Shown piece by piece: positions 36,576 through 63,279 of a stretch of DNA of 64,000 nt (the first letter of the stretch is position 1; the number at the start of each line of letters is the position of its first letter). The stretch spans positions 1-64,000 of the forward strand of contig JAIVFJ010000238.1 of NCBI GenBank assembly GCA_025765615.1, written 5' to 3'. Below the pieces are notes generated by a model. It did not search any database and had not been told where the DNA came from. It saw only the letters and a program-made list of their open reading frames with translations. A program made the position numbers and the translations under genes. Source of the stretch: Zopfochytrium polystomum. Its lineage: Eukaryota > Chytridiomycota > Chytridiomycetes > Chytridiales > Chytridiaceae.

Positions 36576-37061
36576 TTAGCGGATGGGGCGAATGTGGCGG
36601 TCCGACGCGCCGTACGCGAGGCTCGCCATCAGACGGTCGAACCGCTCCTGCTTCGCCGCTGACGCCTCTGACGCATCCGACACCGAGGGCGTCTCGCTCC
36701 CGCCGTTCGCGTCGGCGGCCTCGTCGTCCTCAGCTAGCGCCTCTGCCGGCGACAGCTTGATGTGCCTGTCCGACGCCCCGTACGCCAGGCTCTCGGCGAG
36801 ACGGCGCAGTGCGACTTTGGTCTTTGCGGACTTGATGGACGACGACGGGGTGGAGCGAGCGACCGACGCCGCGGCGGTGACGGTCGGAGTCGTGGGCTCC
36901 GGGGTGGTGGTGCTTGAAGAGGAAGGGGAGGTTTCAGCCTTGGTTGCTGTGGTCATCTTGATGTTGCGGTCGGATGCGCCGTAGGCGAGGGCGGACATGA
37001 AGCGCTTGACGCCGTCGCTGGTTGGGGCGAGGGGAACGGCGGCGGTGGCGTTGGGGTGCAT
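36576..37061 (-). CDS. YGASDR-family small protein, three motifs
   Basis: An intronless gene of 161 residues starting MHPNATAAVPLAPTSDG. Three motif copies are present: VKRFMSALAYGASDRNIK near the N-terminus, RRLAESLAYGASDRHIKLSP in the middle and RLMASLAYGASDRHIRPIR as the C-terminus. They are separated by Ser/Thr/Pro-rich and acidic linkers. There is no signal peptide, TM helix or known domain. Basic pairs (KR, RR) precede the first two copies. It is co-regulated with its relatives to judge by the promoter (37184-37234), and is head-to-head with an orphan promoter at 37594. Promoter and 5' leader are nearly identical to those of the gene at 59417. Function is unknown to me. Confidence 0.8.
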   Translation of the reverse strand: MHPNATAAVPLAPTSDGVKRFMSALAYGASDRNIKMTTATKAETSPSSSSTTTPEPTTPTVTAAASVARSTPSSSIKSAKTKVALRRLAESLAYGASDRHIKLSPAEALAEDDEAADANGGSETPSVSDASEASAAKQERFDRLMASLAYGASDRHIRPIR

Positions 37062-37183
37062 TTTTTCTTTTGTTCTTTGGGGTTGTTCTTTGGAGTGAAG
37101 GGGAGAGCGAATGAGGCCGAGAGGCTGGAGATGTTGCTGGAATGAAGGGTGTGGACTGAGGGTAACGTTTTCTGAGGGCAAGC

Positions 37184-37234
37184 TTTTTATATGCGAGGAA
37201 TGAAGGAGTTTGCCCAATCAGACGCGGTTAGGGG
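37184..37234 (-). promoter_or_regulatory. YGASDR promoter module
   Basis: On the gene strand: CCCCTAA (37228-37234), ATTGG (37214-37218) 9 bp later, then TATAAAAA (37184-37191), about 125 bp upstream of the ATG at 37061. Confidence 0.65.
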
Positions 37235-37593
37235 TTTTTCCTTCTTTTTCTTTTCCTTTGCTGTTGTGGGGGTTCCAGCTTCTCGGCGATTTCGGCCGAT
37301 CACCTTCCTTTGCACTCTCGATCGGAAAGAGGAAGAAAGAAAGTGTTGCAGACAAAACACGATAGTGATCGCGAACAAGATTATGTAAGGTTTTGCTGCG
37401 AGTGCGGATTTCGTTTCTCTTTCTTCTTTCTTTCTTTCTTCCTTTCTCCTTCGCATGCCAAAAAGCACGCGCCATCCGCGGCATTCACTCGCACGCGCTC
37501 GGGGGCTCTACCGGGTGATTCATCGCCCAATCGGCTACGGTGGCTCATCCCTTCGCCTTCACCGCGGATGTAATCCGGGAAAATGAGAAACAA

Positions 37594-37786
37594 GCCCTAA
37601 AAGCTGGCCTTGCTTGCAGAAGGGCCGAGGACCCCCGAACCGCGATATAAACCCAAACCAGTGCTTTCGCTCACCTTAAACCGCCATCAACCAGTTTTCA
37701 CCAGGCCAGTAAGAGCCCAAAACTACTTCTCATCGCCAATAGCCGCTCTACCTACACCTCCCCCTCTCCAACAACCCATGGTCTAA
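37594..37786 (+). pseudogene. Orphan YGASDR-type promoter with dead ORF
   Basis: GCCCTAA (37594-37600) and TATAAA (37646-37651) are followed by a leader and ATG-GTC-TAA at 37778-37786. The intact one-motif gene at 39549 starts ATG-GTC-CAC behind a similar leader. This looks like the remains of a one-motif gene that was head-to-head with the gene at 36576-37061. Confidence 0.5.
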
Positions 37787-37967
37787 GGTTACTTCAGCGA
37801 TTTGCAACTGACTTCTCCCGATTCCATTCCCTTGATCCTCTTTCTCTTGCTCCTTCCGTTGGTTACATCTATCTCCTGCTGTTCGAATACTACTCGCGAC
37901 GTAAACATTTCAAAACGACCGTTTGTAAGGTGGGTGACTTGGATTGCATGTATTTTCATTCCTTTTT

Positions 37968-37996
37968 TAAATATGAGATGGGCTGCGTCGTTCGAG
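37968..37996 (-). terminator. Shared 3' element of three-motif YGASDR gene
   Basis: Same element as at 36364-36380, about 205 bases after the stop of the gene at 38201-38683 (gene strand GACGCAGCCCATCTCATATT). Confidence 0.45.
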
Positions 37997-38200
37997 CGAG
38001 TAAGGGCATGGAGGAAAGACCCCCGAAGGGGAAGCAATCTCCGCAACAGAAACCGAGCAAAGAAAGAGAAGGAGAAAACCAACAAACAACACATAATGTA
38101 AAACAAAGGAGAGGCAGCCAACGCGGGCTGGGAAGCCAACAACCAAAAACAACAAACAACAATCGTCACAGACAAAGGCGGAGACACAACAAGCGCGCGT

Positions 38201-38683
38201 TTAGCGGATGGGGCGAATGTGGCGGTCCGACGCGCCGTACGCGAGGCTGGCCATCAGGCGGTCGAATCGCTCTCGCTTCGCCGCTGACGCTTCCGACGCG
38301 TCAGACACCGACGGCGCCGGCGATGTCTCGCCGTTCGCGTCCGCATTCTCATCAACATTCTCGACCGGCGCCTCGGCGGGCGACAGCTTGATGTGCCTGT
38401 CCGACGCGCCGTACGCAAGGCTCTCGGCGAGACGGCGCAGTGCAAGCTTGGTCTTTGCGGACTTCATGGACGACGACGTGGTGGACCGTGTGACCGATGG
38501 CGTGGCGGTGGTGGTCGGGGTTGTGGGCTCCGGGGTGGAGGCAGAGACCACGGTGGTGGTGTTCTTGGTCCCGGTCATCTTGATGTTGCGGTCAGACGCG
38601 CCGTATGCGAGGGCGGACATGAAGCGCTTGACGCCGTCGCTGGTCGGGGCGAGGGGAGTAGCGATGGCGGCGTTGGGGTGCAT
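38201..38683 (-). CDS. YGASDR-family small protein, three motifs
   Basis: 160 residues, no intron, MHPNAAIATPLAPTSDG start. It has the same three-copy layout as the gene at 36576-37061. Copies end NIK, HIKLSP and HIRPIR. The linker after copy 2 is acidic and ends with AAKRERFDRL before the last copy. It is head-to-head with the one-motif gene at 39549-39800; the two starts are 866 bp apart. The linkers differ much more than the motifs, which argues for selection on the motif. Unknown function. Confidence 0.8.
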   Translation of the reverse strand: MHPNAAIATPLAPTSDGVKRFMSALAYGASDRNIKMTGTKNTTTVVSASTPEPTTPTTTATPSVTRSTTSSSMKSAKTKLALRRLAESLAYGASDRHIKLSPAEAPVENVDENADANGETSPAPSVSDASEASAAKRERFDRLMASLAYGASDRHIRPIR

Positions 38684-38811
38684 TTTTACTTGGGTTTGTT
38701 CTTTTGGAGAGTGAAGGGGAGGGCGAATGAGGCCGAGAGGCTGGAGTTGTTTTGTCGTGAGGAGGCGAGTTGGTTGATTGGATGTGAAGGGGAACGTTTC
38801 CCAAGGAATCC

Positions 38812-38866
38812 CTTTTATAGCGGGCGGGGTGGGGGGGTCGTTCGTCCAATCAGAGGCCCTTAGGGC
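38812..38866 (-). promoter_or_regulatory. YGASDR promoter module
   Basis: On the gene strand: GCCCTAA (38860-38866), 9 bp, ATTGG (38846-38850), then TATAAAAG (38812-38819). Confidence 0.65.
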
Positions 38867-39273
38867 TTTTTTCTTGTTTGCTTATTTTGGTTTGTCAGGC
38901 GAAGGAGAAAAAAAAAAGAAAAAAAAGGAAAAAAAAAGCTCCGGCGTTTTCCACGCTCATCATTTTGCGTAGTTTAGAACTCCAGTCAGCCGGCAGTGGG
39001 GCGGAGATTGAATTGGATTGTGAAAGGCCCGCCCCAAGGGCTGATTATGATCGCGATGCGCAACTCTTTCTTTCTTTCTTCTTTCTTCCTTTCGTTCTTT
39101 CTTCGCTCCTCGTCTTGTCTTTCTTCTTTCCTTTTGCTTCTCCTCCTCTCCTCCCCGCGCGATCAGTTGGTGGCGCAGGGCGTGATTCATTGCCCAATCA
39201 GTTGCCTGCGGTGGCTCATCCATTCGCATAAACATTGCCTGTCAAGGAGAATTGCAGTAAAAAAGAGAAGAAA

Positions 39274-39430
39274 GCCCTAACGCTCCCGTTGGAGAAAGAC
39301 CGAGAACGACCGAGAAAGACCAAGAGCGACTGAGGGAGAAAGAGAGAGAGAGAGAGAGCGTGTGTATGTGTGACTGAGACTGAGCCTTCCCCAAATCTCC
39401 AAACCCCCCGCAAAACCCTTCGATATAAAA
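39274..39430 (+). promoter_or_regulatory. YGASDR promoter module of the one-motif gene
   Basis: GCCCTAA (39274-39280), CCGTTGG (39287-39293) in place of ATTGG, and TATAAAA (39424-39430). A GA-rich insertion (39294-39360) lengthens the box-to-TATA gap compared with its relatives. Confidence 0.55.
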
Positions 39431-39548
39431 CCGCCTCCGCTGTCGCTTACCTAAACCACACACACACCAGGTTCGGCAAGCAACAACAACAAAAAAAAAA
39501 CCCCCTCCCACAGCCACCCGCTCTCTCCAATCACACCACACCGCAACA

Positions 39549-39800
39549 ATGGTCCACTACAACTCCCCCTCCGCAGTCGCCGCCATGGTCCCCAAGACCA
39601 AGATGTTCGCTCCCGCCAAGAACCACCCCGCCGCCGCCGACCTGCCGCTCACCAAGACCGCCACCCAGTCCTCGACCGCGTCGTCGTCGTCGCGAATGTC
39701 GTCCGCGTCGGCCTCCTCGGCAACCAAGAAGGCGGGCGTGCAGCGGTTCTTTGACAGCCTCGCGTACGGCGCAACCAGCCGCCTGGTGCCCGGCCGCTAA
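39549..39800 (+). CDS. YGASDR-family small protein, one C-terminal motif
   Basis: 83 residues, no intron. The N-terminus MVHYNSPSAVAAMVPKTKMF is followed by a Ser/Thr-rich linker and one motif, QRFFDSLAYGATSRLVPGR, which forms the exact C-terminus. The paralogue at 56754-57014 is alike along its whole length. The end in P-G-R differs from HIRPIR of three-motif genes. No signal peptide. It is paired head-to-head with 38201-38683. Confidence 0.75.
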   Translation: MVHYNSPSAVAAMVPKTKMFAPAKNHPAAADLPLTKTATQSSTASSSSRMSSASASSATKKAGVQRFFDSLAYGATSRLVPGR

Positions 39801-40542
39801 GCACGACGCGTCGCAGCCGCCAAGGCCTCTTATTGTGGGCTAGCGCGTGTGTGGGACTGTTTTGGTGCTTCTTGTTCGTTCGACGCATCCGTTTTCGCCT
39901 CTTGTCTTTGGCCGCCGCAGCACGTTTCTTTCTTCGCCATCGTCCAGCCTCACGACAATTTCTTCCTCTTTCGGGCCGATAAAATTGCCCCCTTCTTCTC
40001 TACATTACCCCTTCTTTCGCTGTTGGACAGCCTCTTAACCCTTGTTTCTGGAGACGCCCTCACCGCGATGGCGCATCCTCCACGCGCGTTCTATTTCGCG
40101 CTCTCGAAAAAAAATCAAACGTACCAATATAATAAAAATATCTCTTCATAATTCACTCCCACAAAAAGCTAGCTTCGAAGGGGGCCAGTGTGCCGAACGA
40201 AGATTGAAAACCGAAGCCAACGAGATGAATCAGCAACCGAACCTCGTCGGAGCTTTCGTTTGATTGATGAAGTAGATCCACAGACATGGTGTTCATTTGC
40301 AGTTGGTGGGCTCGATTGTATTTATTTTGTCGAGTTTCCTCAAGCGTGTCCACCCTTGTACCACTCATGAGCAAAGAACAGGGTAGAGACAGGAGAAGGG
40401 CAAAAGGATGGTAAAGTGGGAGATTAGCATAGCCTGCGAGAGGCCATCACATTAGAGGTTGCCAATTAGGTGAAAAGGACAAGAAATTGGAGGGAAGAAT
40501 TGCGGGAAAAAGCGTTGGCACGAGTCGAACGACCCGAGTGTT
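39801..40542. other. Intergenic region
   Basis: 3' flank of the one-motif gene and of the convergent EXORDIUM-like gene. AT-rich around 40120-40160. No gene is seen. Confidence 0.5.
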
Positions 40543-41538
40543 TTACTTGAGCACGCAGGCAGAGGCCTTGTTGGACCACTCCTTCTGGACGGTGTAGGTG
40601 TTACCGTCTCCGCCGGTGATGGTACCCTGCTGCGCGTTGCAAATGTCACCAATCTCGCCGTACTGGCTGTTGTACCACGCGAGCGGGGCCGCGTTGCCGG
40701 TCGCCAAGCCGACGGCGGGGTCCGTGGTCGCCTCGACGAGCTCGTGCGACGAAACGGAGCACAGGTTGTTGAACGTCGACGACGACGTCCCGCAGCCGCC
40801 CGCGCACGAGCCGCCCTGGTCCGGGATGATGCCGTAGAACAGGTACTGCTGGTCCGAGATGTCCGAAATGTCGATTGTGTTGTGGTACGCGCAGAACTCG
40901 ACGCACGAGCTCTGGCCGCCTTGGGAAATCGAGTAGCCGGAGGCGAAGTGGATCGGGAAGTACGAGTTGGCCGTCGGAGTGATCGTGCCGTCTTGAACCA
41001 GCGACCGCAGGTACGGCTGGATGTCGTTCGCGTCGTCGAGGTCTGTGGCGGACGGCAGGTTGCTGAGCGTGATGGCGCCCTTGTACGTGCCGCGGCCGAT
41101 GCCGGAGTACTGGCTCAGCATGTCGTAGTAGGTCGAGCTGGTGACGCCCTTGTAGAAGCCGGGGAGCTTGGAGGCGTAGGTCGCGCCGCCCCAGTTGAGC
41201 TGAAAAAGGTGGCGGGAGGCAAGTGTGTGGAGGAGAGTAATTTAAGAACAATGTGCGAGTAGAATAAAAAACCCGGAAAGCCTCACCAGAGTGACTTCGA
41301 CGTTCTTGAGGACCGGGCCGCCGTAGTAGGTCAAGGCCTTGGCGGAAGCGCGAGCCTGGAGGCGCTGGCCTTCGGCGGGGGCGGGGGCGCCCAGGACGTG
41401 GGCGTCGGGCGTGAACTGGACGCCGTCCTTGTAGCGGACACCAGGGATCTTCTTGTCGACGACAAGGGGGCTCGGAGCGGCCGAGACGAAGGTGGCGGCG
41501 ACGACCGCCAGGGTAGCGAGGATGCCGGTGAGCTGCAT
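40543..41538 (-). CDS. EXORDIUM-like / phosphate-induced secreted protein
   Basis: Two exons with an intron at about 41200-41285, in the same place as in the paralogue at 27830-28848. The signal peptide is MQLTGILATLAVVAATFVSA. Blocks in order: YYGGPVLKNVEVTL, LNWGGATYAS, YYDMLSQYSGIGRG, SYFPIHFASGYS, FCAYHNTIDISDI, SSHELVEATTDP and GEIGDICNAQQG, ending ASACVLK. All conserved cysteines are kept. The start ATG at 41538 follows from the signal peptide. Expected to be extracellular; the biochemical role of the family in fungi is unknown. Confidence 0.85.
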
Positions 41539-42167
41539 TATTCTTGCCTTTTCGAGTGTTGGATCAATGAGGTACTGAAACGGGGATATGAGGTATTCCG
41601 ATCGGGGGTACTGTGGATGGAGGGACGGAGAGCGAAGTGGGCGCGAGTATTTATAGTGTCCACAGGAGGAGGGAGCGGGAGTGACGACCAGGAAGCGGAA
41701 GGGGGGAGCGAGGCGGTCATCCGACGTCAGTCATGCTTGGCAAACGAATTGCCTGAAAAGGAGAAATGCAGACACGTGCAAGCCCAAATATCGCAAGTGC
41801 CAAGCCGAGACAAAGAACTCCAAAAAGGGCAAAGCGCGCGACGCTGTTTGGAATCCATGACTGACCGTGAAATTTTTTGACTGTCACGGCGCGTGGCAAA
41901 CCGACAACGGGACGACGAAAGCCGCCGCGCGTTCCTTCCTTGGCAAGGAAGGCGTGTGGGCAATCAATCGTGTTTCTCTTGCCCGAAAAGGAAAAAAAAG
42001 TCGTTGTCTGCAAGCGATCCTCGCGAAAGCCGCCTTTCTCCCGCGCCTTGGCGGCCTTTTCGTTTTGGGATATCGTTTGCCCCGTTCACCGCAACGGCTC
42101 AATGCACATACATATATGCCCGCATCGATTCGGCTGCCCACCTTACATTTTTTTATGCTGACTGGAA
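41539..42167. other. Intergenic region upstream of EXORDIUM-like gene
   Basis: Contains TATAAATA on the minus strand at 41648-41655 (about 110 bp upstream of the ATG). The rest up to the hAT element has no supported gene. Confidence 0.55.
41648..41655 (-). promoter_or_regulatory. TATA box of EXORDIUM-like gene
   Basis: TATAAATA on the gene strand, 110 bp before the ATG at 41538. Confidence 0.6.
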
Positions 42168-42175
42168 CATATTTG

Positions 42176-44817
42176 CAGGGTTGTTATTTGGACAAAAAAA
42201 GGCACCTGCCTTTTATTGTCCATTTTGGACATTGTCCTTTGCCGGACAAAATGGCGCCGAGTCTGTCGCAAGATCTGTGCCTTTTTGGACTGCCCGAAAT
42301 CCTGCCTTTTTTAGTTTTTGATTGGTTTTGAGATAAAAAAGGAACCCGTCTTTTACCAATTTATTTATTTCTCACTTCTTACAGCCCGTCTCCTCGATCA
42401 CCGAACAAATCTCCAAACAAGTCGGTTGAAAATCCCAAGAATTCGTTCTTCACAAATTCGTAGAGCTCTGTCCCCTCTAGCTGGGCCATATTAGTTACAA
42501 CAAAGATCACCTTATTTATCACATCGTCGTGGAGGCGATTGCGGATGTTGGTGTGGGTGCGGGCAAATAAAGAGAAATTTCGCTCTGAAGCGGCACTGGA
42601 TGTGGTGATGGAGAAAGCCTTCAGCGCTATGGGTCTGAGTCGTGGGAACTCGGAACCCCGAGTAAGCCAAAACTCAGATGGTGAAAGCTTCCGACTTTGG
42701 ACGTTTCCCCAATAAATTGGCTCCGTAAGCTGAATTCCATCACACCATAGAACAAACTTCCAGTACTCGGCACTGATCTCGCTTTTTTCAACATCCGATG
42801 CGCCAAGAGCCGCCAGCTTTTCAACAACCTTGCCCTTCTCAGCTGTGGAAAGGTGGGTGCCACGGTGAACTGGATCCAAGAGATTGGCGAATGCATGCTC
42901 GTCACGTCGCATGAAAGCGAATCGAGCTTCAACCTTTTCCAAAAGTGCGGTTTTCATCTCAGTGGAAAACCCTTCGAGATTGCGAAATTTATCCTCGATT
43001 GTACGGAATCCCATGTAAACTTCTGAAGCAGGCAACCTGTCGCTTGGAAGCGAACAAGTTGCTCGTCAATTGGTGTGAGGATTTCGATAGCCATTCGTAA
43101 ATGTTCGTCAAAATGCTGGTAGTTTAATATACTCAAGATGTACTGACGATGCTCGCGTTCCTTGCGTTGGCAGTCCAGGAAATCAGTCTGAGATGTGGCA
43201 ACTCGCATCAAGGGCAGAGCGTCTAGAACCGACTTTACTGACTTCAGATACGACGTCCAGCGAGTGGGTGCTGGCTGGACAAGCCACCGCAGATTTGCTC
43301 GCTTCATCTCTTGGCGGAGGCGGCCACCCCAGAGTGCGGACATACGAGATGCAGTCAGAGATGTGTATAAGCGGTGATTGCTCGTCACTGATCACGCAAA
43401 TGTCCTTTGTGAGAAGATTCAGTCCGTGTGAAACACATCCACCTGCGAATGTTCCTGGTCTCTTTTTCTGAACAGAAGCCCATGCTTTCTTGTTTGCGCT
43501 TGTGTTGTCTGTCACAACACTGCCAACGTTCGAAAATGTTGCAACCTGATCCATTACATCACAGATATCGTCGGCAAGCTTTTCTGCAGGGCGTGTCTCA
43601 CCGCTTGAATTCTTTGACATCCAGAAAAAGGTATGGGGGCCAGAGACGGGTTTTCAACATATTTGAACGATGTGCCCGACGTGTAAAGTGCCATCGCAAG
43701 GAAAAAGTTGAACGAGCGCTTCTCATCTGTCGACAAGGAAGAGCCCCCGCAAGAACAACGACGGATGTCGTTTGAATGACCAGCAGGCAGGTAGAACGAC
43801 GGATAAAGAGAAGGATCCAGCTCCTTCATCAGGTCGAGGAATTTTGGGCAGCGCCTGACGAGATGATTCTCCACCCGATCAACTTTTTTGTGGTGGTTGA
43901 CCTCCTTTTCGCACAATTTGCAAATGGTTGATTGCTGCTGTCGACACGCATAGTCGTTGGATAAGTAGCTCCAGGCATCAGATGGTGGGCGTCCAGGGCT
44001 CACTGTCGTAGACATACATCTTCTCTTCCGTGAAGAACCAGCATCTGGCAAAATCCCGTCGTTTAAGGACGGAGAATGGCGAGACCAATTTGAATCGCTT
44101 CCTCTCGAGCTAGCGTGACCAGTATCAGAGTTGACGCTGAGCCGAGGCAGACCATCATGCTCATACAACAGTGATTGCGGTGAATCAGAGCTGGACAGTG
44201 GAGGTTGTGCGATCAGCTGGATATGTGATGATGATCGGCCTTCAGGTTGTCGAGTAGTTGTGAAAGCACCAGGTGGCGTGTGACCAGGTATGAGGGCATT
44301 GCTGACAACTCGGCCGATCGGAAACTGCTTACTCTGACCTGAATTAAACACGGACATGATCATCAGCTTTCATCAATGAAACACGCCTGCTCACCACTGC
44401 ACCCAGCAAGAAAGTCAACATTCATCGTTTGGGCGGCTGACGGCAAGGTGTTGGTCACATCCCTCAACTGTTGGTGCATCGCTGGGGTTTTGGCGACAGC
44501 GGGAAGCAAAGGAACCGAAGATGCCCATTTTTCCGTTTGAAAGAATGGCGGTATTCCAGCACCAAGACTGCGTCCTGCACCTGCGCTGTTTGTCGTTGCG
44601 TTCGTCGGTTTGGTCGAGTCGTGGCTATCCATCGATCGAGACGTCGCTTTGGTGGTCGTTGGTGGTTTTTCCTTTGCGCCTTGCGATGCACGAACGAGCT
44701 AACACATCAACTATTTACCTTCCATTTTGGGTCGCATTTTTGGACTGTCCAAAATGCTGTCCAAAATGGCAGGTTTGTGGCAGACAAATGGACAGCCCTT
44801 TTGTTTTCCCAACCCTG
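42176..44817 (-). mobile_element. hAT-superfamily DNA transposon
   Basis: A 2642-bp element. It begins CAGGGTTG (42176) and ends CAACCCTG (44817), which are inverted terminal repeats of hAT type. The flanking 8-bp target duplication CATATTTG is perfect (42168-42175 and 44818-44825), so the insertion appears young. Subterminal repeats of GGAC/GTCC type (for example TTTTGGACA) occur at both ends. The inside encodes a BED-finger transposase on the minus strand, annotated separately. Confidence 0.92.
42379..44632 (-). pseudogene. hAT transposase with BED zinc finger, frames broken
   Basis: The start at 44632 (MDSHDSTKPTNATTN) leads through a short intron near 44350-44395. A BED-like zinc finger follows: C-x2-C in TICKLCEKEV, then H and C in ENHLVRRCPKF. 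Then come VVTDNTSANKKAWASVQ and CVSHGLNLLTKDI of the catalytic core. The C-terminal hAT dimerisation region is RPIALKAFSITTSSAASERN and RNRLHDDVINKVIF. The product ends GDRGDGL. Frame jumps are seen near 43380 and 43045, and a stretch normally present before VVTDN seems missing near 43640. A working full-length transposase is therefore doubtful unless extra introns explain these. Confidence 0.7.
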
Positions 44818-44825
44818 CATATTTG

Positions 44826-45743: not shown

Positions 45744-46151
45744 TCAGCGCAGCGGGTGGATATGACGGTCCGACGCGCCGTACGCCAGGCTGTCCATGAG
45801 CCGCTCGAACCGAGCGGCTCGGCCGTCGGTGGCCGGCGACCCGGCGCGCGAACTCTCCGCGACGCCGTCGGCGTCGACATGGCTGGCGGCCGAGGCGCCT
45901 TCCAGCCTCTCTGTCGCGCGCAACGACTTGGATGACCGGGACGTCCCAGACCTCACGGAAGCCGAGGAGCTGGCGGGCGCGGGAACGTGGAGTGAGTCGC
46001 TTGAGAGGCCGGCGGCGGCGGCGGTTTGATGCGTGGGCGTGGCGGGCTTGACGGCGCGGTCTGAGGCTTCGAGCGGGAGGGACGCCAGGAAGCGGTGGGC
46101 GCCGTCCTTGGTTGGAGCGATGGGGACTGCCAGGGTGGGTTGCGCGAGTGG

Positions 46152-46157
<6 letters not shown>
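45744..46157 (-). CDS. YGASDR-family small protein, divergent two-motif member
   Basis: 137 residues, no intron. MHPLAQPTLAVPIAPTKDG matches the family start. The first motif is altered to HRFLASLPLEASDRAVK. There is no clear middle copy. The C-terminus RFERLMDSLAYGASDRHIHPLR-type end is well kept (its last 16 residues are DSLAYGASDRHIHPLR). The linker is Ser/Ala-rich with the acidic stretch HVDADG. Its start codon directly follows a poly-A tract on the gene strand (plus-strand T run 46158-46182). Confidence 0.7.
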
Positions 46158-46182
<25 letters not shown>

Positions 46183-46307
46183 TGGTGGTTTCTTTGTGAT
46201 TTGGTTTCCTTGGAGAAAGACTGTGTGATCGGTGAAAGCGCCGGGTAGAGAGTATGAGACTTTTTCTTCGTTGGGATGGGTCGTGTTGGAGTGCTGCCGC
46301 GGGCGCG

Positions 46308-46339
46308 TTTTTATACTGTCCAGCGATTAAGGTTAGGGC
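46308..46339 (-). promoter_or_regulatory. YGASDR promoter module (no CCAAT)
   Basis: On the gene strand: GCCCTAA (46333-46339) and TATAAAAA (46308-46315), about 150 bp upstream of the ATG. The ATTGG box is replaced by TTAATCG. Confidence 0.6.
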
Positions 46340-46991: not shown

Positions 46992-48122
46992 TTAAACACC
47001 GTACGACGGTCTCTCAGTCCCATCTGGCCAGCCAGAGTCATGTTGATCCCGTCTTACCTGTCGGTTCTCGACAAAAGAAACCGAAAAATTAGGCAAGCAA
47101 AGAGGGTAGTCGCCGTGACAAGTTCCTCTACGAAATAAACAGGTTGAAAATCCCAGAAATTGCATGCTTTGAGGAGCGGAAAGTGGGTTGCTCTTTGTAC
47201 AGCAGCGGGGAAGCGAATTTCAATGCGAACCCGCGACGCCGTTGCGATGGGGCCCCCGTTTGTCTTAAAAACGTGAAGACACCACCACGTTCCAACGAGC
47301 GGTGGCAACACTGTAATCCCTTCCGGGGAGCTCGCCGTTGCTGTCGGATCTCTTCCCGTGTATTGTGGGTTCAGGCTCTAGGTCCGCTTCCCAATGTTGA
47401 GGATCGCCCCCTTCCGCCAACAGAAGTCCCGTGTGGACCAGCCTCCTGCGTCGCAAGGCGCAGCACTGAGACGGGTCTTGAATAGCTGCCGAACCGCCCG
47501 AGGCTGGACAACAGAGCAGGGAAAAGGCACAGCACGGGACGGTCTGGGGACGCGCCGGTCCGAGTTGGGCGCCAGATGCTGTTCCACCCGGGTTGAGGGA
47601 CCAGCAACTTCTTCCTTTTGCATCTTTAGATTTCCTTTTTTTTGCCCCGCGTCCGACGGCATCGTCGTTGACAAAATTTTGGTTGCGCTGGCCGACTGCG
47701 AGGCTCGAAGTAGCCCGAATCAGTCCAACCGCAGCGCAGCGGAGGTGCAGTCATGGAGACGATCGCGTTTGTCAGCGCCGACCGACTCGGCGTGGGTCCT
47801 GGCAATCGGACGACTGTTCGCGGCACAGCGCCGGCGGACGATCTGGCGATAAGCGGGTCCCCATGAACTGCACGCTGCGTACTTCGGATTGTCCACCCTC
47901 AGGAATTGTCAGACCCATTGTCTCGCGGGCTCCGTCTTGGAGATAGAAATCGTCGAAAATCCACCACGGAGGTGGAGCAGGAGGCATGCGCATCGTGGAG
48001 CCAGTGACTACCCAAGCAGCCGTGTCGAAAAGGTCGTGCCAGGCCTTGTGCCCAGCGAAAGGTCTATCCCAGTCGTCATCGTCCCGGAGAGGCCGGAGTC
48101 CGGTGGTTCGTTGGTCCAGTCT
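46992..48122 (+). repeat. Dispersed repeat, copy 2 (longest copy)
   Basis: About 1.13 kb. The left end TTAAACACCGTACGACGGT and right end GGTTCGTTGGTCCAGTC are both shared with inverted copy 3 (61208-61912). The middle is shared with copy 1. No conserved coding frame or obvious terminal inverted repeat is seen, so it is probably a non-autonomous transposable element. Confidence 0.75.
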
Positions 48123-48552: not shown

Positions 48553-48586
<34 letters not shown>

Positions 48587-52077: not shown

Positions 52078-52440
52078 ATGCACCCCTCCATCATCCTCGC
52101 CCCCACGAACGACGGCGCCAAGCGCTTCATCTCCGCCCTGGTCCATCGCGCATCGTCCCCATCTTCCAATTCCACCACAACAACCACCGACGACAGCAAA
52201 GACTTCAAGTACCAGGATCACGACGCAATCAAGGTGAAGGCAACTTGCACCGGCTCGTTCGACGCAACCCTCGTCGAGCTCACTCCGTTCGAACCTGACA
52301 CCCGCCGCGCCGACGCTCAACCGTCCGACAGGCTCGCGCTGGCGGCAAAGTCGGCCGCCCAGCGGGAGAGGCTTCACAAACTCGTGAGCGGTGGCCGGGC
52401 GTCGGACAACGCCTGCGGCGTTGTCCGGCGCTTTCGTTAA
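52078..52440 (+). CDS. YGASDR-family small protein with degenerate motif
   Basis: 120 residues, no intron. MHPSIILAPTNDGAKRFISAL aligns residue for residue with the family N-terminus, but the core reads LVHRASSPSSN instead of LAYGASDRHIK. Later, RLALAAKSAAQRERLHKL keeps the RxRL lead-in of the last copy, and the C-terminus RASDNACGVVRRFR is a weak echo of GASDRHI. A TCC repeat (51951-51990) lies in the leader. It is either a family member taking another role or one on the way to decay. Confidence 0.55.
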   Translation: MHPSIILAPTNDGAKRFISALVHRASSPSSNSTTTTTDDSKDFKYQDHDAIKVKATCTGSFDATLVELTPFEPDTRRADAQPSDRLALAAKSAAQRERLHKLVSGGRASDNACGVVRRFR

Positions 52441-53020: not shown

Positions 53021-53548
53021 TCACTTCTTCCTCCCGCCCGGCGCTTTCGCCGCCGCCTTCGCCTTCCCCGTCGGCGGTCGCGGCACGCTCTTCACCGCCG
53101 CAACCTTCCCCGCGGACCCCACCGCGCCCCGGTTCTTCGCGGGCAACTGGATCCCCCTCGCCCCGCCACCGCCGCCGCCGCCGGGCGGCGACGGCCTGCC
53201 GGTGGGCATAATCGCGCGGGCGACGGCGTCGGGCTGCGGGCGCGGCGGCGGCGGCGGCGGCAGCGGGCCGGTGGGCGGAGGCCCCGGCGGCGGCAGGTGC
53301 GGCGGCGGCGCGTCGATCGGGTGTGACGCGCGCACGAACAGAACGGCGCCGCTTTGCTGTTCCAGCCCGCGGTCGTGGCGGTACAGGAGTCCGAGCTCTG
53401 CGACCGCCGCCGCCGCCAGAATCGTGGCCAGCAGAAGCAGCTTTTGGATGCGCGCCGCCGCCGCCGCCGCCACCGCCCCCGAGCGGTGGTGGTGGGGTCC
53501 TTTGGTCTTGGTCGCTTTGACTTGGGCGTGGGAGGAGCGCGGGGGCAT
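53021..53548 (-). CDS. Single-pass membrane protein with Pro/Gly/Lys-rich tail, copy 1
   Basis: 175 residues, no intron. Short basic N-terminus, then a signal-anchor RIQKLLLLATILAAAAVAEL, then LYRHDRG. The rest is low complexity: PPTGPLPPPPPPRPQP, Gly runs, and a Lys-rich end GKVAAVKSVPRP to GGRKK. The N-terminal anchor with a basic flank suggests type II topology, with the tail in the lumen or outside. Its tandem paralogue is at 54778-55326. No known family. TATA (TATAAAA, 53706-53712) lies about 160 bp upstream. Confidence 0.65.
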   Translation of the reverse strand: MPPRSSHAQVKATKTKGPHHHRSGAVAAAAAARIQKLLLLATILAAAAVAELGLLYRHDRGLEQQSGAVLFVRASHPIDAPPPHLPPPGPPPTGPLPPPPPPRPQPDAVARAIMPTGRPSPPGGGGGGGARGIQLPAKNRGAVGSAGKVAAVKSVPRPPTGKAKAAAKAPGGRKK

Positions 53549-54777: not shown

Positions 54778-55326
54778 TCACTTTTTCTTCCCGCTCGACC
54801 CTTTCGCCGCCTTCACCTTCACCTGTGGTCGCGGCAGGCTCTTTACCGCCGCGACTTTCCCCGCCTTCGGCGCTCCCCCTTTGTTCGCGGGCGCCACGCC
54901 CCTCGCCACGCCTCCCGTTATGCCCCTCCCCCTGCTGCCGACGGCGGCCGCCCCGCCGCTCGAGGGAGGCGGAGGAGGCAGCGGTCCGGTGGGAGCAGGC
55001 CCGTTCGGCGGGCTGCCGCCAATTGTGTCGATCCAGATTATACGCGCGCCGCGCGTCGACGTCGGGCCCGCGGCCGTGCCGTCGGGCAGCGGAGCCGCAG
55101 GCCGGTTCGGGTTGGAGTTCAAGGCGTCCGGGTCCGGTCCGGCGATGGGCCACGGCCATGCGTGCACGAAGAACGCGCTGCCGGCGCCTTTGCGGTCGAG
55201 GTAGAGGCAGAGGAGTTGCGTCGCCGCAGCCGCGATCACCGTCGCGAGCAGAAGAAGCTTTTGGATGCGCGCCGCGGAGGTGTGGGACCTGGTCGATTTG
55301 AGTTCAGTGGTGGTGCGAGGTTGCAT
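54778..55326 (-). CDS. Single-pass membrane protein with Pro/Gly/Lys-rich tail, copy 2
   Basis: 182 residues, no intron. Signal-anchor RIQKLLLLATVIAAAATQLL, then LYLDRKGAGSAFFVHAW. The tail shares PTGPLPPPPP and GKVAAVKSLPRP with copy 1 and ends SSGKKK. The anchor and these two blocks are conserved between the copies while the rest has diverged. Unknown function. TATA (TATAAAA, minus strand, 55452-55458) is about 130 bp upstream, directly next to a long GA tract. Confidence 0.65.
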   Translation of the reverse strand: MQPRTTTELKSTRSHTSAARIQKLLLLATVIAAAATQLLCLYLDRKGAGSAFFVHAWPWPIAGPDPDALNSNPNRPAAPLPDGTAAGPTSTRGARIIWIDTIGGSPPNGPAPTGPLPPPPPSSGGAAAVGSRGRGITGGVARGVAPANKGGAPKAGKVAAVKSLPRPQVKVKAAKGSSGKKK

Positions 55327-55503
55327 TTTTCTTGACGGCTTAAGGGTTTATGGATGTTTTCGCCCAGTTCCAAGAGGAGGGTAACTATAAGTGAATGGAG
55401 TCCTGGGAGCTGTGGGTGTGTGGATGAGGGATGAGCGATGCTAGCTTCTTCTTTTATACAAGACTTTGGGCAAAGAGGCGATGCAAACAAAAACAAGCCC
55501 GCA

Positions 55504-55647
<144 letters not shown>

Positions 55648-56753: not shown

Positions 56754-57014
56754 TCAGCGACCGGGTGTTTCGGGCACCAGGCGGTTGGTGGCGCCGTACG
56801 CGAGGCCATCAAAGAACCGCTGCACGCCCGACTTCTTGCTTGCCGAGGAGGTCGACGCGGACGACAGTCGTGACGATGATGACGTGGTTGATGACTGGGT
56901 GGCCGTTTTTGTGAGCTGCAGGTCGGAGGGGGACGGCTGGTTCTTGGCGGGAGCAAACATTTTGTTCTTGGGGACCATGGCGGCGATGGCGGAGGGGGAG
57001 TTGTAGTGAACCAT
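56754..57014 (-). CDS. YGASDR-family small protein, one C-terminal motif
   Basis: 86 residues, no intron. MVHYNSPSAIAAMVPKNKMF and a Ser/Thr linker match the paralogue at 39549-39800. The single motif reads QRFFDGLAYGATNRLVPETPGR-like, with three extra residues (ETP) before the terminal GR. It is head-to-head with the three-motif gene at 57824-58315, the same arrangement as 39549/38201. Confidence 0.75.
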   Translation of the reverse strand: MVHYNSPSAIAAMVPKNKMFAPAKNQPSPSDLQLTKTATQSSTTSSSSRLSSASTSSASKKSGVQRFFDGLAYGATNRLVPETPGR

Positions 57015-57132
57015 TGTGGTCGTTATGACGGGGCTGTGAAGGCTGCTGCAGGCGATGAAAGTTCTCTTGGGGGCGTGGTGGATCTGAGTGGAGGGGATTT
57101 GGTAAGCGATGGTTTTATCTCGGCCTTGATGA

Positions 57133-57184
57133 ATATATATACTGTATACGGGAGGAGAGTTTGAACAGGGCGTTCGGTTAGGGC
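57133..57184 (-). promoter_or_regulatory. YGASDR promoter module of the one-motif gene
   Basis: On the gene strand: GCCCTAA (57178-57184) and TATATATA (about 57133-57141), roughly 120 bp upstream of the ATG at 57014. Confidence 0.6.
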
Positions 57185-57626
57185 TTTCTTCTCGTTTTTT
57201 CTTGCGTGACGATTCAGTAGGTTGGGCCGCCGCCGTTGATTGGGCTATGATTCACCACGCGCATACAGCAGGGGGCGTGCTTTGCGCCACCAGACTGGTG
57301 CGAGAAAAAGAACAAAAAAAAAAGAAAAAAAAAAAAAAAAAGAAAAGCAAAGGACGAACAAACCGCACCTCGGAATCCGCACCAAACACTCCCCCCCTCT
57401 TTGCTTTTTCCTTCGCTTTCCATTTCTTTCCGCCCCAAATCTCCCAAATCTGCCTGTCGAGTGAGTGAGCGTTGAAAAAAAGAAAGAAAAGAAAAAAAGA
57501 AAAAAGAAAGAAAAAAGAAAAAAGGCTGAAAAAACCCTGCGCAAATTTTGTTTGTTTTGTTTTCTCCTTTGCCTGCAGGGCTCGGGACGAGGGCCCAAGA
57601 AAAAACCAAACCAAACAAGAAAAAAA

Positions 57627-57680
57627 GCCCTAACGGGCCTTCTCATTGGGCCAACGAGCCTCGCTGCCCCAATATAAAAA
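57627..57680 (+). promoter_or_regulatory. YGASDR promoter module
   Basis: GCCCTAA (57627-57633), 11 bp, ATTGG (57645-57649), then TATAAAAA (57673-57680), 144 bp upstream of the ATG. Confidence 0.7.
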
Positions 57681-57823
57681 TGGCAGAGGGCGGTGTAACG
57701 CCTTCAACAAACCAGTCAACCAACTAGCCTACCTTCCCACAAACAAATAACTCCAGCCTCTCGGCCTCATTCCCTGCCCTCCCGAAAGCCTCCCTCTTCT
57801 CCAAAGTACAGACCCAAGTTAAC

Positions 57824-58315
57824 ATGCACCCCAACGCAAACGCCACTGCTCCCCTCGCCCCGACCAGCGACGGTGTCAAGCGCTTCATGTCTGCCCTCGC
57901 CTACGGCGCCTCCGACCGCCACATCAAGATGACCACAACAACCAAGGACATCACCGCGGCCACAGCCTCCTCCTCTGCTTCCACCACGTCGACTACCCCA
58001 GAGCCCACGACCCCGACCGCTTCGGTCGCCCGCTCGACCACGTCGTCATCGAAGAAGTCCACCAAGACCAAGGTTGCGCTCCGCCGGCTCGCCGAGAGCC
58101 TCGCGTACGGCGCTTCCGACAGGCACATCAAGCTGTCACCCGCCATGGCGCCGGTCGAGGAGGACGAGAGCGTGGACGCGAACGGCGAGACGGCGACCGC
58201 GCCGTCGGTGTCCGACGGGTCCGAGGCGTCTGCGGCGAAGCGGGAGCGGTTCGACCGCCTGATGGCCAGCCTCGCGTACGGCGCGTCGGACCGCCACATT
58301 CGCCCCATCCGCTGA
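57824..58315 (+). CDS. YGASDR-family small protein, three motifs
   Basis: 163 residues, no intron. MHPNANATAPLAPTSDG start, copies VKRFMSALAYGASDRHIK, RRLAESLAYGASDRHIKLSP and MASLAYGASDRHIRPIR. The linkers are Thr/Ser-rich (TTPEPTTPTASVARSTTSS) and acidic (PVEEDESVDANGE). It is in tandem with 59417-59938 and head-to-head with 56754-57014. The frame is clean and has a strong TATA box. Confidence 0.8.
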   Translation: MHPNANATAPLAPTSDGVKRFMSALAYGASDRHIKMTTTTKDITAATASSSASTTSTTPEPTTPTASVARSTTSSSKKSTKTKVALRRLAESLAYGASDRHIKLSPAMAPVEEDESVDANGETATAPSVSDGSEASAAKRERFDRLMASLAYGASDRHIRPIR

Positions 58316-58490
58316 AACGCAATTTGTTCTCGCGTCGCTTCATTTCGCGTCTTCCCTTTTTGTTTGGTTGTTGGCACTCCAGCCCGCGCTGACTGCCCCC
58401 CATTGTCTTACGTTTGTTGGTTTTTCTCTCTCTCTTTCTTTGCTGGCTTCCTGTTGCGGAGATTTTCCTCCATGGCCTTACTTGCCGAAC

Positions 58491-58512
58491 GACGCAGCCC
58501 ATCTCATATTTA
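58491..58512 (+). terminator. Shared 3' element of three-motif YGASDR gene
   Basis: GACGCAGCCCATCTCATATT, about 176 bases after the stop, matching the elements behind the other three-motif genes. Confidence 0.45.
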
Positions 58513-58683
58513 AAAAAAGAATGAAAATACATACAATCTAAGTCACTCCCCATCAAGAAGTCAAAGTGTTTACTCCCGAGTTGCGTTCGAATCGCAGGAG
58601 GAGAGGATCGAAGGAATGATACCGCAGTTCCGAAGAGCGCTGGAAGTCTTTACGAGTCGGCTGACTTTGGCGCAGCACCCAAG

Positions 58684-58790
58684 GTGCGCCTACAACCGCC
58701 CCCCTGCATAATCCTCCACAACACTGTCAAAAGCTTCATCTCCGCCCTAGTCCATCATACGTTGTTCAGAGGTTCCCCTCATCCTCACCA
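58684..58790 (+). pseudogene. Relic of a YGASDR-family gene
   Basis: IILHNTVKSFISALVHH matches IILAPTNDGAKRFISALVHR of the gene at 52078. The frame then diverges and no further motif follows. Confidence 0.45.
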
Positions 58791-59222
58791 CCAATATGAC
58801 CGCCACCACCCTTTTGGCCTGGTCGAAAACTGGCTGGTTTGCGGGCGCTCGCTCTTTCTGATGACCAGGCGAGCGGTGGGGCTTGCTTCTCATCTTCTCG
58901 GAGTAGTTTTGGCGAATGGATGAGCCACCGCAGCTGATTGGGCCATGAATCACCCGCTGGTGACAGTTTCCGCCCAGCGAGCACGCGCCACGGACTCGTG
59001 CGTGCCGGCCTGTGCGGAACAATGAAGATTGGACGCCCAATAAGAAAGAACAAAGAAGAAAGAACACAAGCAAGCAAGCCTTACATCATCATCATGTTCG
59101 CGATTTCAATATTTTTTTTTTCTTACGGGCGCAAGAAACCTTTCTTTCTTGCTAAAGAAAGTGCGAGCACGAATTGGAAAGAGACAATCCTTTGCCTCCC
59201 ACAAAAGAAAAAAAGGAAAAAA

Positions 59223-59297
59223 GCCCTAACCGCGCCTGATTGGGCATCCTTTTTAAAAGGTGTCTCCTTGCCTTCTTCATTCCTCCCACATAAAAAG
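59223..59297 (+). promoter_or_regulatory. YGASDR promoter module
   Basis: GCCCTAA (59223-59229), 9 bp, ATTGG (59239-59243), then CATAAAAAG (59289-59297). It runs on into a leader nearly identical to that of the gene at 36576-37061. Confidence 0.65.
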
Positions 59298-59416
59298 CTT
59301 GCCCTCAGAAAACGTTACCCTCAGTCAACACCCTTCATTCTCCAGCAACATCTCCAGCCTCTCGGCCTCATTCGCTCTACCCATCTTGAAGCCCCTTTCT
59401 CCAAACCCCAGTAAAA

Positions 59417-59938
59417 ATGTACCCCAACGCCACCGCCGCTACTCCCCTCGCCCCGACCAGCGACGGTATCAAGCGCTTCATGTCCGCCCTCGCCTACGGC
59501 GCCTCAGACCGCCACATCAAGATGACCACAACAACCAAGGACGCCACCGCGGCCCCGGCCTCATCGCCCGCTTCCACCACCGTGACTACTCCGGAGCCCA
59601 CGACCCCGACCACCACCACCACCGCCACGCCCTCGGTCGCCCGCTCGACCACGTCGTCGTCCAAGAAGTCCACAAAGACCAAGGTTGCCCTCCGTCGTCT
59701 CGCCGAGAGCCTCGCCTACGGCGCGTCCGACAGGTACATCAAGCTGTCGCCGGCCGAGGCGCCGGTCGAGGATGACGAGGAGAACGCTGCGGTGGCGGAC
59801 GCGAACGGCGAAACGACGACCGCGCCGTCGGTGTCCGAGGCGTCAGAGGCGTCTGCGGCGAAGCGGGAGCGGTTCGACCGCCTGATGGCCAGCCTCTCAT
59901 ACGGCGCGTCGGACCGCCACATTCGCCCCATCCGCTGA
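59417..59938 (+). CDS. YGASDR-family small protein, three motifs
   Basis: 173 residues, the longest member, no intron. The start MYPNATAATPLAPTSDGIKR differs by Tyr for His. Copies are FMSALAYGASDRHIK, LAESLAYGASDRYIKLSP and MASLSYGASDRHIRPIR. The linker between copies 1 and 2 has grown by Thr runs. It lies in tandem with 57824-58315. Upstream sequence at 58913-58958 resembles the divergent promoter of the one-motif partner, but no such gene is found there now. Confidence 0.8.
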   Translation: MYPNATAATPLAPTSDGIKRFMSALAYGASDRHIKMTTTTKDATAAPASSPASTTVTTPEPTTPTTTTTATPSVARSTTSSSKKSTKTKVALRRLAESLAYGASDRYIKLSPAEAPVEDDEENAAVADANGETTTAPSVSEASEASAAKRERFDRLMASLSYGASDRHIRPIR

Positions 59939-60125
59939 AACCGCTCTGCACTCTGGCGTCGCTGCTTCATTTCGCTTCTTCCTTTGTTTGTTTTAGTTGT
60001 TGGCTCTGTAGCCCGCGCTGGCTGCCCCCTCTTTGCTTTATGTATTTCTCTTCCATTGCTTTCTTCTCTCTCTTTTGCGGAGATTGTTTCCCTTCGTAGG
60101 CAGCTTTCCTCCATTTCCTTGCTCG

Positions 60126-60150
60126 AGCGACGCAGCCCACCTCATATTTA
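60126..60150 (+). terminator. Shared 3' element of three-motif YGASDR gene
   Basis: GCGACGCAGCCCACCTCATA, about 188 bases after the stop of the gene at 59417-59938. Confidence 0.45.
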
Positions 60151-61207
60151 AAACTCCCGAAAATAAATGCAATCCAAGTCAGTGTCTGATTGCCGTAACT
60201 GATATGTGGTCGAGCAGGCTCCAAACTGCCCCATTAGCCGATTTCTTCTTTCTCCTCACCTCGTCGACTGTTCTTTAGGAAGTCACATGGGAATAAGTAA
60301 AAAGCCCGGGAAAGGTTGTTAAGTCGACGCCTGTTAGACGGTTTTCCTAACGCGGTGCGTGGCCTATTGTCGGCGGCGGCGGCTTTGACGTTTCAGCGGC
60401 CGACTCAAAGCAAGCACGCGCCGGGCGGAAGAGATCCACCGCAAGGGAATGCAAGGCAAGAAAAACAGATACGTGCACTTTTGAAAACAGCAACCGACCA
60501 TTCCGTTTTTCACAAGACTTGGCTCTCGAAAATCTAGTAGAAAAGCCCAACTCCCCCACCCCCCCAACGCTTTGCTTCTTGCTTAAACCCTTTATGAAAG
60601 CCATACACCTCACCACCACCTACTCGCCCCGACCGCCGACGGCGCAAAGCGCATCCTTGCGGCACCGGGCGCCGCTTCAAATCGCACCACCAGAACACTC
60701 GCCGCCGCCTCCACACACCATCCACGACGCTCGCGAACATTAACGGCAGCCGTGAGCCGTCAGTGGGAAGCACGGGCCAGAGAAAAAATGACATCAAGAC
60801 GCATTGCACCAGACCACTACCTCCCCTTCAGTCCTGCCGAGGAAACATAATCTCGGCTTTGTGTTGCACTTCGTTTGATGTATTTCCATCCGGTACCCCT
60901 CGCCGCCCTGCACATGTTTAGCAAAAATCATTCTGCTTTGACTAGAGTCGATCTCCAATGATCTGGATGGGATTAATAGTTTGCGTTCGGCTTTGAGGTG
61001 CCGGCCTTGACGAAGCAGCGGACACCGCCAATACTGGCACACAGTACCGAATCCTCACCCAGTGTCGGACGAGACACAAAAACCATTCGCGATCCATCTG
61101 CTGACTGCGAAAGCACCAACGATCGATTGTCAGGTTCGCGATTGTTGTCTCCAAAAGAAAAGGAATTAGAGTAAGCACCAATTATCACGATGCGAAAGAA
61201 AGAAGTT
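60151..61207. other. Intergenic region with a family relic
   Basis: Apart from the relic at 60600-60745, an 81-residue minus-strand frame at 60973-61218 has no recognisable feature and is not called. Confidence 0.45.
60600..60745 (+). pseudogene. Relic of a YGASDR-family gene
   Basis: LLAPTADGAKRILAAPGAASNRTTR aligns with LAPTSDGVKRFMSALAYGASDRHIK (first 18 residues given: LLAPTADGAKRILAAPGA). No in-frame ATG precedes it and no later motif follows. Confidence 0.5.
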
Positions 61208-61912
61208 GACTGGACCAACGAACCACCGGACTCCGGACCCTCTCCGGGACGATGACGACTGGGATGGACCTTTCGCTGGGCACAAGACCTGGCACGACCT
61301 TTTCGACACGGCTGCTTGGGTGGTCACTGGCCCCACGATGCGCACGTGCACTTTCGCCCTCCTGCTCCGCCTCCGTGCTGGACTTTCGACGATTTCTATC
61401 CCCAAGGCGGGACCCGCGGGATAATGCGTCTGACAATTCCTGAGAGTGGACGATGTGCAGTACGCAGTGTGGAGTTCAGGGGAACCCGCTTATCGTCAGA
61501 TCGTCCACCAGTGCTGTGGCCACGTGAAGTCGTCCGATTGCCAGGACCCGCGCTGAGTCGGTCTGCGCTGACAAACGCGATCGCTCCATGACTGCACCTG
61601 CGCTGCGCTGCGGTTGCAGACTGATCCGGGCTGCTGCGAGCCTTACAGTTGGCCAGCGCAACCAAAGGATGTCAACGACGATGCCGTTGGACGCGGGGGA
61701 AATAAAAAGGAAATGTAACAATGCAAAAGAAAGAAGTTGCTGGTCCCTCAACCCGGGTGGAGGAACATCTGGCGCCCAACTCGGACCGGCGCGTCCCCAG
61801 ACCGCCCCGTGCTGTGCCTTTTCCCTGCTCTGTTGTCCAGCCTCGGGCGGGTACGGCAGCTATTCAAGACCCGTGGCCAGATGGGACTGAGAGACCGTCG
61901 TACGGTGTTTAA
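61208..61912 (-). repeat. Dispersed repeat, copy 3, inverted and internally deleted
   Basis: Reverse orientation of copy 2 (46992-48122). Both ends are present, but about 430 bp corresponding to 47040-47470 of copy 2 are missing. Confidence 0.75.
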
Positions 61913-62620
61913 CGCTGTGCACTATCTTCGCCTCAGCGTCGACCGTTTTGTGGCGCCCCGGAAGGCACCTCACGAAGCGCCTGCAGCTCCTCTCAAATGA
62001 CAAATGCTGCGGCAGCGGGCGCAAGCGGCAAGCCGGTTACGATGCAGCCCATCTCATATTTAATCTCATATTTAGAAAATTGAAAATGGACTATAAAACT
62101 GCTTGACCTCCTCGCTTCGTTCTCACCACGGCTGGCTTGTCGTTCATAAAAGACAGTTGAAATGTCACTGGCAACCACTCCGGGTCCCCAATTCCTCCAT
62201 TACACTGCCACGACTAGCACGGCGCTGACGATCGCCGTGATCCGTTATACCTGCGCTTCCTCTGATTCGATCCAAGTGTCGTCCATCGTTCGCAGTGTCT
62301 CCTCCGACGGCCAGACGGGTCGGGGAAGGAGGCGGTGCGCATGCGGCGCGTGGGGGCGCAGCCCAGCGGCACCGAGTTTGTCTCCTCACCATTGTTGTGC
62401 AATAAAAATGACGCCGTCCTGGGACCGTTCTTTTTTCGGTCGTGTTTGCCCTCCAAAACCGTCTTCCAGCTTCCTGTCGTTGAAAGTTTCTTGTTTGCCT
62501 TTCGAAGGAGGCTTTCCGCACAAAAAAAGACGAAGCAAAAGGAAATATCCGAAAAAGCAGCAAGCCGCAAACAAAAACACGTCAAAAATCACGGAGAAAT
62601 GCACCATATGCAGAAAAAAA
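61913..62620. other. Intergenic region
   Basis: Contains the orphan 3' element at 62041. No gene is supported. Confidence 0.45.
62041..62063 (+). other. Orphan copy of the YGASDR 3' element
   Basis: GATGCAGCCCATCTCATATT is present, but no family CDS lies in the ~190 bp before it; the inverted dispersed repeat ends just upstream. It marks a lost three-motif gene. Confidence 0.45.
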
Positions 62621-62680
62621 GCCCTAGTCCCGATTTTCATTGGACAGCCCTGAACCGCATCTCGCTCCCGCATAAATGCG
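62621..62680 (+). promoter_or_regulatory. YGASDR promoter module
   Basis: GCCCTAG (62621-62627), 11 bp, ATTGG (62639-62643), then CATAAATG near 62670, about 135 bp upstream of the ATG. Confidence 0.6.
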
Positions 62681-62808
62681 CTTCCACCCACCCCTTTCCC
62701 CCGACTTCCTCCCTGCCGCCTTCCAACGACTACCACTCTGCTTAGCCTAAAGGATTCAAAATTTATCCCATCATCACATAGCCCCTCTCCAACTCCCAAA
62801 ACCCAAAC

Positions 62809-63279
62809 ATGCGACCGACCCCCGCCTCCACCACCACCACCCCTGCCGACAGCGTGCACCGTCTCCTCTCCTCCCTCGCCTACGGCGCCTCCGACCGCGT
62901 CCTCCCCGCCCCTTCCCCGCGCCACCACCGCGCCGAAGACGCCGTCATCCTCACCTCCGCGGCAGACCCGGCCTTCGACACCGCCTTCCCGCCCCTCGAT
63001 CGCGAGGACACCGACCATCCGCCGTCGGCCCACCACGCCGCCGCTCGAGAGAAAGCCGCCGCACTCCGAAGACTCGCGGTGATACTGGCTGGCCGCGGTC
63101 GCCACGAGGCCGGGTACGCGCGGATCTGTTGTGACGAGGACGAGGACGACCACCGGCACGGGCACCTCGACGCCGACGGGCAGCCGTCATCGGCGCCGCC
63201 GCCGGCGGAGCGGTTCGGACGCGTGATGGACTGTCTCGCGTACGGCGCGTCGGATAGGCATATTGTGCCGGGCCGATGA
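62809..63279 (+). CDS. YGASDR-family small protein, divergent, two motifs
   Basis: 156 residues, no intron. The N-terminal copy is VHRLLSSLAYGASDRVLP and the C-terminal copy VMDCLAYGASDRHIVPGR. The middle copy is reduced to ALRRLAVILAGRGRHEAGYA, which keeps the LRRLA lead-in but not the core. The long linker is His/Asp-rich (DEDEDDHRHGHLDADG). The PGR end is shared with the one-motif gene at 39549. This links the two subclasses. Confidence 0.75.
   Translation: MRPTPASTTTTPADSVHRLLSSLAYGASDRVLPAPSPRHHRAEDAVILTSAADPAFDTAFPPLDREDTDHPPSAHHAAAREKAAALRRLAVILAGRGRHEAGYARICCDEDEDDHRHGHLDADGQPSSAPPPAERFGRVMDCLAYGASDRHIVPGR

Follow-up and report, generated by a model that had tools for sequence, protein, structure and literature searches.

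Within a window of 64,000 nucleotides from the chytrid Zopfochytrium polystomum (contig C238), we find a cluster of small genes whose products share a short peptide motif, RFxxxLAYGASDRxI, present in one to three copies in each intact protein. As the first-pass annotation of this DNA had proposed, at least eight such genes are intact: eight ORFs run from ATG to stop and encode proteins of 83-173 aa, and they are accompanied by a decaying ninth (Table 1). We put at roughly 45% the reading that these LAYGAS proteins form a genuine family, so far seen in chytrids only, of disordered intracellular adaptors whose short helix would dock one conserved partner; the location, the docking and the partner are predicted from sequence. 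Paralogs conserve the peptide itself rather than its DNA, and they do so in a lineage about whose cell biology little has been learnt.

Table 1. Motif-bearing genes and copies of the shared upstream element in the window.
Feature	Position	Strand	Description
Gene A	36576..37061	-	161 aa; three motif copies
Gene B	38201..38683	-	160 aa; three motif copies
Gene C	39549..39800	+	83 aa; N-terminal NSP/LPLTK module, single C-terminal LAYGATSR motif
Gene D	45744..46157	-	137 aa; copy 1 degenerate (LPLEASDR), copy 2 full
Gene E	52078..52440	+	120 aa; degenerate member, motif decayed to ALVHRASS
Gene F	56754..57014	-	86 aa; paired with gene C
Gene G	57824..58315	+	163 aa; three motif copies; on C3, its allele is annotated as NCBI model P0001
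Gene H	59417..59938	+	173 aa; three motif copies
Gene I	62809..63279	+	156 aa; two motif copies
22-nt element CTCCAGCCTCTCGGCCTCATTC	37109..37130	-	upstream of A
CTCCAGCCTCTCGGCCTCATTC	38725..38746	-	exact match, B
CTCCAGCCTCTCGGCCTCATTC	57751..57772	+	exact match, G
CTCCAGCCTCTCGGCCTCATTC	59352..59373	+	exact match, H

The motif is not a product of chance. A DNA pattern for LAYGASDR has 29 matches in the 80.16-Mb genome (761 contigs) and a broader pattern has 36, with none in either case for the control (reversed, for LAYGASDR); the 29 matches use 12 different DNA spellings, so that it is the peptide, not the DNA, that is kept. Internal copies continue as IxLxPA(E/Q), both in the window and in a second cluster on contig C184. 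In all eight intact window proteins the last copy is followed by 5-8 residues with Arg at the end, and the earlier claim that the last copy always forms an Arg-ended C-terminus thus stands for the window, but not for loci elsewhere, at which the motif is internal.

The same gene cluster occurs, reversed, at 72-99 kb of contig C3, where the best matches of nine stretches are collinear with the window over 2.1-3.5 kb at 91.8-97.8% identity, and we read it, from this collinearity, as the second haplotype. Between the two haplotypes the eight intact coding sequences are 98.4% identical with one indel (6 bp) in 3,381 aligned bases, against 97.2% identity and 88 indels (66 with lengths not divisible by three) in 10,658 bases of flanking DNA; this comparison took each gene with 700 bases on each side, or fewer where the match ended, leaving out gene E, and the flank total counts some indels twice since flanks of neighbouring genes overlap. 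This deficit of coding indels, together with the low dN/dS (omega) of the motif among paralogs and the upstream TATAWAW elements described below, establishes that the eight intact ORFs are protein-coding. Gene E, for its part, carries a 1-bp indel between haplotypes, and no TATAWAW was found upstream of it.

TATAWAW lies between -165 and -115 in six of the nine window members and in 5 of 12 members elsewhere, compared with 4 of the 151 remaining ORFs that are at least 80 aa long and 1.6% of random places (scan range -200 to -60; the outside set is 12 of 19 members, seven haplotype copies having been dropped); the standard form was chosen after seeing these upstream regions, which makes the significance optimistic. 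A post hoc TATA pattern that picked out 8/9 window members and 5/151 controls was discarded, as it recovered just 2/19 out of sample. The 22-nt element CTCCAGCCTCTCGGCCTCATTC is matched exactly at eight genomic sites, four on each haplotype and all preceding the A, B, G and H genes, with no additional genome match at up to two mismatches, and may be a mere trace of recent duplication.

Among the paralogs A, B, G and H, the motif is under purifying selection at the protein level. Pairwise omega in the motif is 0 (AB), 0.027 (AG), 0.095 (AH), 0.030 (BG), 0.122 (BH) and 0.122 (GH), against linker values of 0.356, 0.249, 0.345, 0.364, 0.346 and 0.427 for the same pairs. Using disjoint pairs, nonsynonymous changes fall at 5 of 231 motif sites versus 57 of 467 linker sites for AG and BH (p = 3e-6), and at 3 of 231 versus 60 of 476 for AB and GH (p = 3e-8). 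In line with this, the rounded ratio of synonymous to nonsynonymous changes is 19:5 in the motif and 60:57 in the linker for AG and BH (p = 0.013), and 14:3 and 50:60 for AB and GH (p = 0.008). The contrast is partly built in, the motif having been picked for its conservation, and the four genes are not independent in their history. Across the motif, dS (0.21-0.37) tends to be lower than across the linker (0.21-0.62), which leaves room for some gene conversion or codon constraint, but the synonymous-to-nonsynonymous ratio differs all the same. For the C/F pair, omega over the whole gene is 0.277. Between haplotypes, however, the motif shows no stronger constraint than the linker (omega 0.55, from 3 synonymous and 5 nonsynonymous changes, versus 0.505, from 20 and 27); pooled dN/dS is 0.50 at a dS of 0.026, and single-gene values lie between 0.10 (I) and 2.6 (H, with 1 synonymous and 7 nonsynonymous changes), on changes too few to read. 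The first-pass argument that a fixed motif amid diverging linkers points to selection is accordingly borne out by the paralogs but not by the haplotypes.

The intact genes represent four independent lineages, namely the mutual duplicates A, B, G and H, the C/F pair, D, and I. Their order is mirrored, with A, B and C at the left and H, G and F at the right, and the A-H and B-G alignments extend into upstream DNA (36328-37254 to 60181-59203 and 37873-38883 to 58600-57609), suggesting that the two halves arose by inverted duplication; the C-F alignment covers 39546-39792 and 57017-56771. Coding dS does not rank as a simple inverted duplication would have it: it is lowest for G-H (0.214), followed by B-H (0.315) and B-G (0.368), and A-B (0.418) differs little from A-H (0.407), so that gene conversion or a different order of duplication among these four genes is likely. 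Pieces of a hAT transposase lie inside the cluster in separate ORFs (42379-44363, minus strand), with the hAT dimerisation domain and a BED finger just below cut-off. A dispersed repeat occurs in and around the cluster (35500-36041, 47094-48121 and 61208-61874), of which the stretch 47471-48121 has 19 genome matches, mostly partial.

The genes were also said to be intronless, and this agrees with the uninterrupted ORFs and with the NCBI models P0001, P0003, P0006 and P0007, whose lengths equal those of the ORFs; model P0005 is at odds with it, fusing the C3 copy of F with an adjoining ORF and dropping the LAYGAT motif. The ORF so joined matches 54778-55326 (minus strand), one of two similar small window ORFs (the other at 53021-53548, minus strand) that have AARIQKLLLLAT in common and matched nothing in Pfam at E up to 0.1. 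Only three of the eight intact C3 alleles were found as gene models in protein searches capped at 8,000 candidates, and of these three one is partial and another is fused to its neighbour; with so few alleles among the gene models, the family is easily missed.

Searches of the organism's own genome identified four intact members in the C184 cluster, with the motif RF(F/W)xxLA(H/Y)xxS(D/N)R and the ending PPxY(S/R)E(K/R)xV, and an apparently broken copy at C184:83342-83562, with two matches in different frames. Near-identical copies are found on C43, C205 and C659, that of C659 having a different tail, while a copy on C559 is frameshifted. The PPxY starts nine residues from the end in all four C184 members and 11 in that of C43; it is present in 5/5 given proteins of these two branches as against 0/9 window members, and is absent from model P0004 and the C659 copy. 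Judged by the motif, the family extends beyond the window and most of the outside loci have the PPxY tail, which in the C184 branch is a likely WW-domain ligand. Weak genome matches lacking the motif (e.g. L031-L033, L035-L038, L072, L088-L090 and L092) were dropped as chance.

Genes C and F combine the LAYGAS-type C-terminus with an N-terminal module, MxHxNSPxAVAS..K..F..LPLTK, that is not present in A, B, D, E, G, H or I. Seven further loci carry this NSP module without LAYGAS (on C136, C6 and C153, three on C1, and one on C318), with copies of the C1 loci on C213 and of the C318 locus on C269 and C125; in the C153 and C6 loci (L066 and L059), long Ser/Ala-rich tails follow the module. The module matches P0008 (HDU76_000882), a hypothetical protein of Blyttiomyces sp. 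JEL0837, at E 2.2e-14 (608 candidates scored), and P0008 searched against the Z. polystomum genome best matches C136 at E 1.2e-14, from which we infer firm homology. Like C and F, P0008 joins an NSP/LPLTKTATQSS N-terminus to a C-terminal FFxxIFGAS, but it is only 68 aa long and has no full LAYGASDR motif. Its C-terminus, VKSFFSKIFGASSSK, aligns beside VQRFFDSLAYGATSR, LTKTATQSS also being common to both sides, and its score is reached by 26 of 5,000 shuffles against the G motif, 137 against C and 529 against F, so that a relationship to the LAYGAS motif is only suggestive. The C end and the G motif, by comparison, are clearly related, with 0/5000 shuffles reaching their score. Given the firm NSP homology, the suggestive link at the P0008 end and the clear link between C and G, the LAYGAS motif may have been elaborated from the C-terminal helix of a chytrid family that predates it.

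The claim that the motif belongs to no described family has held up. There was no Pfam match above cut-off for the nine window members, P0003, P0006, P0007, P0008 or three further NSP proteins; the weak matches, the best being New_glue at 16.2 bits (cut-off 31), fell mostly within the Ser/Thr linker. The best match among PDB sequences, mL80 (E 0.017), was rejected as not credible. Protein searches with the window members (E up to 1) and with a masked family alignment (E up to 10) gave five and six matches, respectively, all to gene models of Z. polystomum (Chytridiales); each scored only the 8,000 candidates with the most words in common, and the absence of LAYGAS outside this species holds at that sensitivity. 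Viral contigs gave 43 pattern matches, none a relative. In an open-licence library, no paper was found with LAYGASDR or four other motif strings, although the letters LAYGAS or YGASDR occur there inside other text, and nothing on the family came up among the chytrid small-protein papers listed. Zopfochytrium itself appears in the relevant portions of PMC9926174 and PMC8480134 as a reference and in taxonomy.

The window proteins are 38-54% Ser/Thr/Ala/Pro, with GRAVY values of -0.22 to -0.60. No hydrophobic N-terminus was found in the nine members by a crude count, the highest nine-residue hydropathy within the first 33 residues being 1.16-1.42. Mean helix propensity is 0.34 for 17 motif segments versus 0.674 for 610 linker 11-mers, 7% of the latter being equally helical; the motif segments end before the Gly, and linker Pro drives much of the contrast. 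By this weak measure the motif segments, and not the linkers, are predicted to be helix-prone.

When a disordered protein diverges freely except for a short fixed peptide, that peptide usually signals a binding partner. As neither a leader nor a known domain was found, the simplest interpretation is a disordered adaptor that carries a docking peptide. The products would then be small intracellular proteins with a mostly disordered Ser/Thr/Ala/Pro-rich linker, presenting one to three docking peptides in which a putative RFxxxLAY helix would be capped by Gly and followed by ASDRxI. Repeated copies would provide several hooks per protein for one common partner, and the tails of the different branches, short and Arg-ended in the window and PPxY in C184, could deliver that partner to distinct machinery. 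The C184 and C43 members resemble, in their PPxY end, the PPxY adaptors of Nedd4/Rsp5-type ubiquitin ligases, from which the family differs in that the window members have no PPxY and that no arrestin or other domain was found. It is even conceivable, although we think it quite unlikely, that these are chytrid signalling scaffolds, in which an older NSP protein would have given rise to a growing set of disordered Zopfochytrium adaptors with up to three copies of a new, almost invariant helical docking peptide, a ubiquitin-ligase-recruiting PPxY branch and one shared receptor.

Stress or sporulation protectants, in which the repeats of a disordered chain would shield membranes or proteins without needing a fixed partner, would account for the composition, the repeats and the TATA boxes, a promoter feature associated in yeast with regulated genes. 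Fungal Con-6 (conidiation-specific protein 6, PF10346) is likewise small and disordered, with a short conserved repeat and diverging linkers, but its segment differs, and no Con-6, LEA or dehydrin model came up in the Pfam search at E up to 1. Since the core is fixed residue by residue, seemingly beyond what a bulk protectant would need, we regard this alternative as unlikely. We hold the same low opinion of a membrane-binding helix, in which the RFFxxL segment would insert into membranes and the repeats would add avidity: P0008 and the C136 protein do have at their C-termini a basic stretch containing FFxxIF or FFxxLF, yet the hydrophobic moment does not rise above shuffles in any of nine segments, giving no sign of an amphipathic helix, a point that weighs against the docking helix as well, and Gly and Asp sit within the fixed core.

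The first-pass suggestion of a precursor of small peptides, here secreted and with its copies cut out at basic pairs, fares poorly. As in fungal alpha-factor-type pheromone precursors, a short peptide is repeated in a small protein and basic pairs precede some copies (KR or RR just before the first two copies in A, B, G and H; in B, G and H the final copy also has a KR, somewhat further upstream). Unlike those precursors, the LAYGAS proteins have no hydrophobic leader by hydropathy, nor a CAAX end, and the pairs are not conserved, lying at most nine residues before the core in 12 of 29 copies but in none of eight C-terminal ones (14 proteins, one haplotype); we therefore judge it very improbable. 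Functionless decaying duplicates or repeat-derived ORFs would suit the setting among a hAT element and dispersed repeats, the decay of E, the broken C559 and C184 copies and the haplotype omega of 0.50, but are scarcely believable in view of eight frames intact on both haplotypes, the coding indel deficit, the low paralog motif omega and the TATA boxes.

Finally, the window contains two paralogous ORFs with HELVEATTDP (28267-28848, plus strand, and 40543-41121, minus strand; 75.98% DNA identity over 1 kb), which may resemble EXORDIUM-like proteins and matched nothing in Pfam at E up to 0.01, and an ORF at 15385-15918 (minus strand) that matches the first part of the Tle1-like hydrolase domain PF09994 (E 3e-9).
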